A stretch of DNA of 64,000 bases from assembly GCA_019775845.1 (NCBI GenBank), contig JADQAV010000059.1:1-64000 (forward strand), read 5' to 3'. Below are positions 18,347 through 24,348 of the stretch, piece by piece; positions within the stretch are counted from its first letter, which is position 1; the number at the start of each line of letters is the position of its first letter. Under the pieces are notes generated by a model that saw nothing but the letters and a program-made list of their open reading frames with translations, made no database searches and was not told the DNA's origin. The stretch is from Myrmaecium sp. VS I D KN 1 (taxonomy: Eukaryota; Ascomycota; Dothideomycetes; Valsariales; Valsariaceae). The translations under genes and the position numbers were made by a program.

Positions 18347-21300
18347 TCACGCACACCCCACCCCCGCCGCCTCCCTCCTCTCCCGGCCCACCTTCACCAC
18401 ACCATCCGACACCGACGGAGGAGCAGCGGCGGAAGCCGCAACAGCAGGGATCATCTTCGCACCACCATTGCCACCACCACCATCACCACCACCAAGACCC
18501 AACCCCGCCATCTCCCGGCCCAGCCCATCCATCTCCAGCGCCAAATCAACAAGGTACCGCTGCTGCTTGCGGCCGGGGAAGCAGACTTCGGCGTCGTGCC
18601 CGTCAGGCGCAACGTTGCGCCCCAGCGGCGGAGGCACCCCCTCCAGCACCGTTGCCGCCGCCGCCGCCGCCGTCTCCGCGCCCGGTAACCGGACCACGCG
18701 CGCGCGCAGGGTGCGGCGGATATCCTCGAGCAGGACCTCCATGGGGCAGAGGTAGGTCAGCCGCAGACGGTCGCACCAGGCGAGGACGTGGCCGCAGACT
18801 TTGCCCTCGGCGTCGTCGATGATCCAGGCACCTGAGTCGCCGCCGACTACATTTAGGCAGTGTCAGTTAGCCACAACTCGAGGGACAGAAGAAAAGGGTC
18901 AGGACAAGTACTCACCTCCAAACCCCCCCATCACCGTCCAACTCCGACTCATGCTCCGCCGACCCCAGATGCGCACCGCGCTCATCGCCGCCCCGACCAC
19001 GCCGCCCGTGAGCCCGCTCGTGCGCGCCAGGCAATGCACGCGCAGGCCCGCCAGCTCGCTCGCCCCGCGCACCGCAACAGGATACTCGTCTTCTCCTTCC
19101 CGCTGGGCGGCAGGAGGGAGGCCACGCCAGCGCGCCCCGCCGCGGACGACGTTGCGGCGTTCCGTCAGCAGCCGTTCGGGTCCGATGTCCAGGACCACCC
19201 AGTCAACCTCGTGGCGAACGCCCCGCATCGTGCGGCGGCGGATGCCGGAGCTGGCGTGCACTTCCGCGAACAAATGGCTGGCCAGATGCTCCTCGTCGCG
19301 GTCTTCCTCGGAAGGGAAGAAGGATGGATCGACGTCGTCGATTGCGGGCTGCGTGAAGGAGATCTCTTTGCGGTAAGAGCGGTCCGGCGTCTCAGCCGGT
19401 GGAGGTATGCCAGGGACATCGCCGATGGTGGACGCCGCAGAAGAGGCAAGGGACATCGCATCGTCGTCGTCGTCGTTCAGCTCCTCCGAGGAGTCAGCCT
19501 CGTACTCGCTCGTCCCAGCCTCTGCGTCACTATCGTATAACCAGTCGTTCCCCTCCTCATCGTCATCGGCATCATCGTCGCTGATCTCGAACCTGCCGTC
19601 CATGACGCCTTCGCCGATCTCCAGCGCTTCCTGACCGCCAACGCCAACGATCCAGTCCGCGCCCTTGCTAGAGCTTCGCACAGGCAGCGAGTCCTCAATA
19701 TGACCTTCCGCCCCCAGGGCAGCGTCTGCGCCTTCATCCACCCCTTCATCATCTTCCTCCCCCTCCTCTTCCTCCGACGGCGCATCCAGCGCATGATGCA
19801 CGCTCATCCCCATCAGCTCGCCATCGACCTCAATCAAGCCACCAAAGCTCACAGGCGGGAGATGTCCGACCTCCTCGCGCCACGCACCGATGCTCGCACC
19901 GCAAGTGGGGTGGGACTGGTAGTGCGGGTTCAGCGGCTGCAAGGAGCAGGAGTGTCCGGCTTTGGGGGGATCATCCGGCCGTGAGGGCGGCGGCGGGGGC
20001 GGGGGCGCCATGGACCGACGGGCGCGGGAACGCTTGGCGGACGGGGCGGCGGCGCGCTTGGCTTTGGAGCGGCGGACCGTGCCCCGGCGGACTTTGAGAT
20101 AGAAGGTGGAGGTGTCGTAGACGAAACGCTTCTCGAGCACTTTGCGGACCTTGGGGACGGAGGTGCAGGTGACGAAGATGGTGGGCCGGATGACGGCGGG
20201 CGTGGCGCCGACGGCGAGGAGGTCGATGCTGATGGTTTCGGGGGAGTCGCGCAGCGCGTGGGCGACGAGCTTCTCGAGACGGGGGAGGTAGGAGTCGTGC
20301 CAGAGGGTGGTGACTTCGGAGGGGAAGTGATGGTGAGGATGGATATGGAGTTTAGGCTTGGTGGGGGATCTCGGTTGATTGGACGGGAGACAGGCGGTAA
20401 CATGCAAGTTAGTGGGAGGAGGGATGCGCGTCTCTACGCCCTCTTCAGCCGGCGTTCGAAGCAGGCGGTTCGATTCCACGGTCGATGTCGGTAGTGTCGA
20501 CGCCGGGTTTGTCAATGACCTGCTCTGCGACGCGAATCCAGATGCAACAGCAGCCTGTCTCCGTCGCCATTGTTTCTGCAAAACAATGATCTTCCGCCGA
20601 TACTCTCTAAAGGAAATCTTGCCGCACCTCGCTCTCCAAGCACGCTGTATCGTGTTCGCAGCGGCGACAACCTTCTCCTTGTAAGCCTGCGTCTGGTTCA
20701 CCGTCGCAGGCGTGACAAGATTCGAGTTGCTTCGCCCGACGGGCGGAGGAGCTTCCCTCCTCGACGTGCCATCGTAAGGCCCATGCCAGTCGACCTCGCT
20801 CTCCGGACGCGCGCTCGCCGTGAACATCTCCACCCCGCCGCCAACATGACCTCGCAGCTCTTCCGCCGCCTTTTTCATCAAGCCACCAAGGTCCGTGGCA
20901 ACCGCCTGCGACCGCAGAACGTGGGTCTGAGACGACAGGAGAGACTCGCCTTTCCCCTCCTCCCCACCGAGAGGGTGCGACTCGCCCGCCCCCGGCAGCA
21001 TGCTCTTCTTCCGTCTGGCCGCGCTCGTGGTGAAGCCAGGGCCTGCCCTGCCCAGCGACCGAAGATCCTCGTCACTTTCGTCTTCATCGATCAAACAGCA
21101 CCGCTCCAACCGCTTCAAGACCCCCGCATATACCGGCGCCAGGAGGTCCTCGCCATCCCGGCCGTCCGTGGCCTCCACGGCGGTGAAGCAGCCTCGCACG
21201 GCCTGCATGTACGCCGAGCCGCACTTCGCCGCCAGCCGACGGATCCACAGCTCCTCCAGCCGCTGCTTGAAGTACTTCAGCGAGTACTTGGGCTTGAACA

Positions 21301-22825
21301 GGTCGGCCAGCGGGATCCAAAGCCCGATCTCGAGGAGCGTGAGACCAAGGGCGTAGAGGTCGTGTGCGGGGGAATACGCTTTCGCCGCGGCGGATGGGGT
21401 GTTGGCGCCCATAGACACGAATGGATCGAGCGGGTGACGATACAAGTTCTTCTGGACGAACGACGGGTCCTGTGCGTCCTCCTGCGACAGCGACGCCTTC
21501 GAAGGCGTAGGGTGTTCGATCGAGAACTCCGAGAAGACGTCCCAGCTAGCGACGACGGGGGCGCGAAGGTCGTAGTTCATGACGCGGTAATGGCTTGTGG
21601 GTGGGTATTTCGGCTTCGGCTTCGGGAAGAGCAGAACGTTCGCGCTGTTCACATGGCGGTGGGTGAGACCTTCACCGTGAAACTTGCTGAAGGTTGTGAC
21701 GAGAGTGTAAGCAAGACGGAAGCGGTCTTCGAGCGGAGGCGCAATGGCGAGGGAGGTGTGAGAGGGGTTGTTGGGGGATTTGGACGACAGCTGGAGAAGC
21801 GAAAGGAGAGTAACGGGGCGCAGGTGTGAGGGCGGTGAAATGGTCGGGATAGTAGCGAGGGGATGGAAAAGGGTGGAAGGTATAGAGTACACAAGTCCGT
21901 AGCGTGGCTGGTCGGGATCCTCGAAGTAGCCAACGCATGGGAGCGTACCGCTGCGAGGCGATTCAGACGACAGGCGAACGAGGAGGGAGAGCAACAACTC
22001 GAGCCGTTCGGTCGGTGGTGATGCGCCGGCGACCTTGTAAGTCGAGTCATATGTGGCGTATTCGACAAGAACAGGGAGTTCAGTCATCTGAGCGTCGGAA
22101 TGCCAGGAGCTCGAAGCGGTAAGTGGAAGATGCTGCTGACGCATCCGCCCCACGAGCCTAGTCGCCGGCGTAACACCGATGCTTTCATAAGGTGGCGGCT
22201 CTTCCTCCGGTAGGATCAGATTTTCCGGATCGATCTTCGGTGGCAGGGGCGCTTTCGACATGCTCGACAGGGCTGTGTTCGTTCTCGTGGTCGAAGGGTC
22301 GGTGGGATCCACCAAAGTGATCTCCGAGGGGCTGTACATGCCCAGCATTCTGGCATCGCCGCCCTTTTCGGACCGTAGCAGAGCCTTGTCCGTTCCCTTC
22401 CTGGCCCTGGACACATCGAACAGGATATCGATCGAACTGGCAAGGTCCCTCGCCAGATCCTCGTACCGCGCGAGATCCGCCGGAGCGGGCCCCTTCTCAC
22501 CTCCCACGGAGTGGATCTGCATCCGCTCCGCCTCGTCGAGCATCCCCTTGATCGTACTCAGCACGCCCGTGACCGTCTCCGTCAGCCCGGCTCTGGCCAG
22601 CGGCTCGTCGATGTCCCCCTTTGCCGTCGCCGTCGGGCTGTTGTCCGCCCATTCCCAGCCCCACTCCAGCAGCCGCGCGCGCTGGACGCTGATCTTTCGG
22701 CTGAGCTCCGGGAGGCATCCGGTATGGTCGCGCTCGACGACGGCGTCGCAGGAGTGTTTGGCGTCGCTGTAGAGCCGGGTGAGGCGGCGCGCGTCGGAGG
22801 CGGAGGCGGGGAGCGGTATCGACAT
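18347..22825 (-). CDS. HeLo-type / pseudokinase / IQ / trypsin-like fusion protein
   Basis: Two exons (22825-18916 and 18846-18347) encode 1,469 residues; the intron has donor GTGAGT and acceptor TGTAG. Residues 1-130 resemble the fungal HeLo (prion-inhibition) domain, including the RARLLEWGWEWA helix, but the hydrophobic first helix of HET-S is absent. Residues about 230-590 are a kinase fold with HRH (389-391) in place of HRD, Asn396 kept and Asp419 in place of the DFG Asp, so it is probably a pseudokinase. An IQ motif starts at Ile726. Proline- and basic-rich linkers follow. From Cys975 a chymotrypsin-like domain appears: His1010/1011 in SVHHAL, Asp1208 in VDWVVL, and Ser1308 in GGDSGAW, the last formed only by splicing. 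An Asp/Glu-rich insertion of about 190 residues separates His and Asp. A cell-death or allorecognition role is inferred. The frame is open upstream to 23065; 22825 is the start that leads directly into HeLo-like sequence. Confidence 0.85.
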
Positions 22826-23341: not shown

Positions 23342-24348
23342 TCAAAAAGTGGCCGGCATCACACTCAGCCGGCCTCCATCCGTAATCTGAACATTCCCAT
23401 TCACATACGCACCCGCCTTGCCCACCAGATACAAGATAACACCCGCCAAATCCTCAAACGAGCCCTTGCGTCCCGCCGGAATCTCCCGGACGCCATACTC
23501 CTCCTTCGAGCCCGCCGTCATGTCGCTGGGGTAGATACCCGGGTCGACGACGTTGCTGCGGATCCCCCAGGGCGCCAGCAGGTGGGCCAGCCCTTTCGCC
23601 TCGTGGATCGCCGCGGCCTTGCTGCCGGCGTACGCCATCCCCGCCGTGATGTATTTGTTAAACCCAGCGATGCTCGCCACCGTCACGATCTGGCTCTGTC
23701 GACGATCGCTCTCCTCCACACCCTCCTCCTTCGCCTTACCCACATCACGACGTCTCGCCCTTCCCTCCTCCACCTTCCCGCCCTCCCACCCCCTTCGCTG
23801 ATTCCCCCGATCAAGCAGACCCAGGAACGCCGCGCTCACGCCCACCACAGCCGCCGCGTTGACGGCGAAGGTATCCGCCCAGCCGTCCCAGTCGGCCAGC
23901 AGGATGCGCTGCAGCTCCGCCACCGAGTCCGCGGCGTGCACGTCGGTGTGCTTCGGCCCCAGCATGCCCGCGTTGTTGATCAGCACGTCCACGTAGCCGA
24001 CCTCCCGCTCGACCTGCGCGACCGCTTTCGCGATCGAGGCCGGGTCCGTCACGTCGCAGCCGACGGGCACGACTGTCGTGGATGTTGAGGGGAGGCTGGC
24101 GATGGCGCGCTCGAGGACCTCCTGTCGTCGGCCGAGGATGTAGATGCGTGCGGCGCCGGCTTGGGCGAGGGCGGAGGTGAAGGCGAGGCCGATGCCTAGG
24201 GATACGCGGTTAGCGTTGAGTCATTGGGGATGGTGGTGAGAGGAAGGTGGAGAGGTATGGACATACCACTGCCGCCGCCCGTGATGACGATGACGAGACC
24301 TTTGGCGGAGTAGAGGTCCGCGAGGTCGAGGGGAGCGGTGATATTCAT
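23342..24348 (-). CDS. Short-chain dehydrogenase/reductase (classical SDR)
   Basis: Two exons (24348-24267 and 24195-23342) encode 311 residues. The intron (donor GTATGT, acceptor CTAG) falls inside the cofactor loop, and joining restores TGGGSGIG, the NAD(P)-binding TGxxxGxG motif near residue 24. NNAG follows in the usual position, then an IASIAG-type Ser and the catalytic YAGSK (YxxxK). The C-terminus has the ITDGG sequence common near the end of SDRs. Compared with typical 250-residue SDRs there is a charged insertion of about 35 residues (the RGNQRRGWEGGKVEEG region) before the catalytic Ser, probably a surface loop. It is an NAD(P)-dependent oxidoreductase of unknown substrate, probably cytosolic as no targeting signal is visible. 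Confidence 0.92.

Follow-up and report, generated by a model that had tools for sequence, protein, structure and literature searches.

A gene on the minus strand of a 64,000-nucleotide stretch of the Myrmaecium sp. VS I D KN 1 genome (contig JADQAV010000059.1, positions 1 to 64,000; hereafter the window) encodes a 1,469-residue protein in which a HeLo-like helical bundle, a pseudokinase, an IQ-like linker and a chymotrypsin-fold protease module follow one another. We propose, with about even confidence, that this protein (22825..18347) represents a serine protease, conserved among filamentous ascomycetes, that works as a regulator inside the cell and whose HeLo-like/pseudokinase head would gate a NAL1-like protease module. 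An intracellular regulatory protease is the most economical reading because the catalytic triad is intact in all 103 aligned rows that cover it, the head lacks a membrane helix, and a cluster of basic residues is present. The original prediction had seen the same architecture, which largely stands, and had interpreted it as a self-contained death switch, an interpretation that is now weakened.

The chymotrypsin-fold domain occupies residues 960-1356 (18689..19948, with the intron inside; this and all following features of the gene are on the minus strand). Two structure predictions were made, one of window residues 1-600 (mean predicted local distance difference test score, pLDDT, 74.6) and one of the C-terminal module of a relative, P0121, from which the fold of this domain is taken. 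The P0121 module was predicted as a chymotrypsin fold (PA clan) with His, Asp and Ser in order, and it includes a predomain (strand-strand-helix-strand) that was transferred by match to residues ~851-918 of the window protein (20072..20275). The spliced minus-strand reading gave the length and the residues announced by the original prediction: His1010-His1011 (19793..19798), of which 1011 is the catalytic one by motif reading, and, from the alignment, Asp1208 within HEVDW (HEIDW in most relatives; 19202..19204) and Ser1308 within GGDSGAW (18833..18835). The three residues are all retained in the 103 covering rows, on which ground a chance triad was discarded; together with the predicted fold of P0121, this supports the chymotrypsin-fold domain first proposed from the sequence.

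Between His and Asp lies an acidic insert, delimited by spacing and composition (residues 1017-1150; 19376..19777). Across the 103 rows the His-Asp spacing is 155-196 residues with a median of 29% Asp plus Glu, and the stretch of P0121 matching the insert has low pLDDT. The insert could possibly act as an inhibitory or metal-binding segment. Just after it, the window protein and its relatives carry a conserved ITQPAIDDVDxDFFP block. Furthermore, one relative of the protease module, P0175, reads GDAGAW in place of GDSGAW and has an N-terminal half without HeLo or kinase Pfam match; it is likely a dead-protease relative.

When the predomain and protease of P0121 were compared with solved structures, the first match was the plant protease NAL1. 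The fungal module and NAL1 (rice, maize, barley) have the predomain and the protease fold in common, and both show HH at the catalytic His, GR-SG...G and GDSG, by reading and partly by alignment. Their sequence similarity is near noise and the profile-profile comparison is weak. Indeed, P0121 had no match to Pfam NAL1_N or Nal1_C up to E 10, while rice NAL1, run for comparison, matched them at E 3.3e-44 and 8.3e-151, respectively; the NAL1 construct in the PDB matched only NAL1_N, Nal1_C and, weakly, S64. PDB sequences searched with the C-terminal profile gave two chance-like matches and no protease chain. The fungal module differs from NAL1 by its long His-Asp spacing and acidic insert, and NAL1 is not known to contain a HeLo, kinase or IQ part. 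Among the listed matches of the open-licence literature on NAL1, none concerned a fungal NAL1-like protein. NAL1-type proteins work intracellularly. In two reports, a maize protein of this type degrades a TOPLESS-like corepressor (PMC12915138) and a barley one is nuclear (PMC6776861).

A second point of comparison is Ssy5 (peptidase family S64), which resembles the proposed role in being an intracellular fungal PA-clan protease that processes a transcription factor; one source describes this processing and terms Ssy5 peptidases single-domain (PMC5567314). The Pfam Peptidase_S64 profile remained below its cut-off, the best match being E 0.23 (10.3 vs 23.6 bits) in one of the 53 members of alignment A1. 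Rice NAL1 (P0243) and the fungal relative P0218 gave weak matches to the same stretch of the Ssy5 (S64) profile. There are hints that NAL1, Ssy5 and the fungal module may form one intracellular PA-clan group.

The head of the protein begins with the HeLo-like bundle (residues 10-151; 22373..22798), located by the family-level Pfam match, the modelled helices and hydrophobicity. The Pfam HeLo profile (PF14479) matched 30 of the 31 family members in alignment A2 at E <= 0.01 (best 1.9e-9), which supports assignment of the domain to HeLo at family level. The HeLo-like N-terminus of the original prediction thus holds for the family, while the window copy itself (E 0.0039, 17.5 bits) falls under the cut-off of 23.2 bits. 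Its predicted helices span residues 10-35, 39-59, 73-78, 82-107 and 115-151. A profile of residues 1-162 found two chance-like matches and no HeLo chain among PDB sequences; the matches listed in the fold search with the N-terminal model were kinases, and the absence of MLKL from them excludes nothing.

What distinguishes this bundle is its first segment. According to one study, residues 1-34 of HET-S form a hidden transmembrane segment, the killing element, and such an N-terminal segment is detected by TMPRED in almost every one of over 100 HeLo domains and by TMHMM in 21 of 35 (PMC3531502). HET-S and the HeLo proteins share an N-terminal helical domain with this family, which lacks their hydrophobic N-terminal segment: none of 106 relatives (14 of the 120 were dropped by an N-terminus filter) reached a 19-residue mean of 1.6 within residues 1-60, the expectation being taken from that TMPRED/TMHMM work rather than from canonical HeLo domains run through our script. 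The top value in the first 60 residues was 0.81 among the relatives and −0.03 in the window protein. Outside the N-terminus, the same script found stretches of at least 1.6 in 11 of the 106 relatives; in the window protein it found one, of 1.63, at residue 492, within the kinase-like domain. In each of the seven proteins inspected, the best HeLo profile stretch starts only at position 34-38 of the profile.

The kinase-like domain (DUF7580; residues 191-582; 21080..22255) was delimited by Pfam, the model and the fold search, and its motif positions were read by eye. The model of window residues 1-600, with the fold search, gives it a kinase fold, as first read from the sequence, and kinase motifs are lost. 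The beta-3 Lys position holds Glu or Asp in 120/120 ungapped rows (Glu in the window protein). Within an alignment of 121 rows, which takes in the window protein, metagenomic gene models and fragments, the Asp of HRD is kept in 113, replaced by Glu in seven and by His in the window protein (HRH). The DFG position reads D-L-F in most rows, and its Asp is therefore retained. Judging from these residues, the domain is apparently inactive. Of four proteins compared with NCBIfam, two gave weak matches, mostly to kinase families and none of them close to a cut-off.

The linker contains tandem IQ-like motifs (residues 716-765; 20531..20680), defined by a loose IQ core. At least one such core is present in 120/121 rows, compared with 26% of random stretches; for at least two cores the figures are 95/121 and 6%. 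The Pfam IQ profile did not exceed its cut-off in any of six relatives scanned (best 19.5 vs 20.3 bits), nor did it match the window protein up to E 10, so that the IQ motif proposed earlier persists as an enriched core and not as a Pfam domain. Calmodulin binding by this linker is possible. Between predomain and protease, a Lys/Arg-rich, nuclear-localisation-like cluster follows (residues 909-938; 20012..20101): at least 8 Lys/Arg per 20 residues are present in all 120 rows with enough letters (one of 121 dropped), over a background of 2.2%. Of these 120 rows, 79 fit a bipartite nuclear-signal pattern and seven a monopartite one. The cluster would fit a nuclear signal, and the protein is possibly nuclear.

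On this basis, the working part would consist of the predomain and the NAL1-like PA-clan protease, the head formed by the HeLo-like bundle and pseudokinase could serve for sensing or oligomerisation, and calmodulin may dock on the IQ-type linker. Once activated, the protein would cut a specific partner; its likeliest target could be a nuclear transcriptional regulator, in view of the Lys/Arg-rich cluster and by analogy to NAL1 and Ssy5. If this is true, filamentous fungi hold a conserved and little-noticed regulatory protease that pairs cell-death parts with a NAL1-type enzyme; HeLo would not necessarily imply killing, and proteins now annotated as "het-s domain protein" or "prion-inhibition" would have to be reinterpreted. 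A more detailed scenario, which we put forward only tentatively, is that the HeLo-pseudokinase module lost its membrane-piercing helix and, in filamentous fungi, came to serve as sensor head for a nuclear NAL1/Ssy5-like protease, gated by Ca2+/calmodulin and rewiring transcription. Such a calmodulin-gated switch would tie a necroptosis-type fold family to protease signalling, with limited proteolysis as the means of rewiring transcription.

The protein is not unique to this genome. A search with exon 1 identified 182 proteins at E <= 1e-3, and the best 120 listed were mostly ~40% identical over 99% of the query, some being shorter or fragmentary; an annotation artefact was rejected because exon 1 aligned over 99% in most of them. 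Among these 120 of 182 matches, 65 named organisms have one entry apiece (counted by eye; the database is clustered at 90% identity). The survey of the architecture in other fungi, suggested with the original prediction, found relatives that are mostly full-length. Judging from their names, the carriers are nearly all Dothideomycetes, with one candelariomycete, Pycnora; the C-terminal module was also found in Trichophyton (Eurotiomycetes) and Haloplaca. The relative P0175, from Paraphoma chrysanthemicola, shows that additional copies of the protease part do exist. Two peptide patterns derived from alignment A1 gave 47 matches on prokaryotic genome contigs, none confirmed as a relative.

A tree built from 27 rows places the window protein, with a long branch (1.37), inside an unresolved group of 14 rows (support 95/94) that also holds Pseudovirgaria and a Pleosporales-type cluster; its placement is unsure because its composition deviates. 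The deepest forks are weak (51/3). Several clades match fungal orders, an agreement that fits vertical descent. The family appears to be vertically inherited and, from the count of named organisms, is apparently single-copy. Among the listed matches in the open-licence literature, no report described a NAL1-like protease joined to HeLo and pseudokinase domains; as far as seen, the architecture is widely conserved yet unstudied.

Two death-related explanations have to be weighed against a regulatory protease. The first, which we consider rather unlikely, is an upstream initiator that activates a separate death effector by cleavage, as HET-Q2 does on the gasdermin HET-Q1. An active-looking protease fused to a sensor-like head would suit it, and one report documents protease-triggered gasdermin death in fungi and also places ~80% of fungal gasdermin genes in clusters with proteases (PMC10197012). 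However, these proteases are mostly S8, some CHAT, according to the same text. HET-Q2-like proteases may likewise accompany sensor-type domains, but they are described there as S8 subtilisins, often adjoining gasdermin genes, whereas this family has a chymotrypsin fold; the HET-Q1/HET-Q2 analogy of the original prediction therefore fails. Moreover, no NLR or gasdermin match was obtained in the 20 of 70 window open reading frames (ORFs) scanned, a scan that intron-split genes may escape.

The second, a self-contained death or incompatibility switch, is less probable still. The HeLo domain would perforate membranes, with the pseudokinase holding it in check in the manner of MLKL; the protease would either release the HeLo domain or amplify the signal. 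The family-level HeLo match at the extreme N-terminus is in its favor, as is the succession of helical and kinase-like domains, found in MLKL and fungal HELL-pseudokinase proteins too; one source attributes such an MLKL-like layout to some HELL proteins (PMC12881547). Unlike them, this family adds a C-terminal protease and is without a membrane helix. The switch is weakened by the lack of a HET-S-type helix, since both the hydrophobicity values and the late start on the HeLo profile argue against it, by the apparent vertical inheritance, by the absence of NLR and gasdermin matches among the scanned ORFs, and by HET-Q2 being an S8 enzyme. The matched neighbours, which are metabolic, transport or housekeeping genes, and the conserved, apparently single-copy distribution also speak against it; het genes, by contrast, are patchily distributed. 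A death or incompatibility role is still conceivable, and would then more likely involve a cleaved partner than a HeLo pore. Lastly, the protein could be a scaffold, its protease inactive or cutting itself only once and its fold kept for binding. This reading has the pseudokinase of the same chain and the GDAGAW of P0175 as precedents, but is very improbable given the triad retained in all covering rows.

The gene comprises two exons. Exon 1 (22825-18916) contains 1,303 codons plus one base and exon 2 (18846-18347) includes the stop codon; the 69-nt intron between them (GTGAGTAC...CTAAATGTAG; 18915-18847) lies directly upstream of the GGDSG motif. The spliced reading agrees with the uninterrupted GVGGDSGAW of the relatives.

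In its own genome (25.7 Mb, 66 contigs), the protease part was found in at least one place and HET domains in at least seven (E <= 0.01). HeLo at E <= 1 was found, again as a lower bound, in this gene only, itself below the cut-off, as was the single match of the control. This HeLo and HET-domain tally is low for a Pezizomycotina fungus. The sole further DUF7580 place found at E <= 1 is G000:C7:363212-363535 (L003, L016). NACHT places are unspecific because the NACHT control matched in all 14 bacteria and archaea, and the S64 and Nal1_C searches were blank together with their controls, which is no sign of absence.

Neither the Rfam scan nor the tRNA scan of the window yielded a match. Ten of the 20 scanned ORFs (70 are listed in all) had a profile match at E <= 0.01: a carboxylesterase, an FAD/Rieske oxidoreductase, an MFS protein, a hexapeptide protein, a mitochondrial carrier, a short-chain dehydrogenase (23345-24070), an amino-acid permease, a DEAD helicase, an inositol-pentakisphosphate 2-kinase and a weak LSD1 zinc finger.
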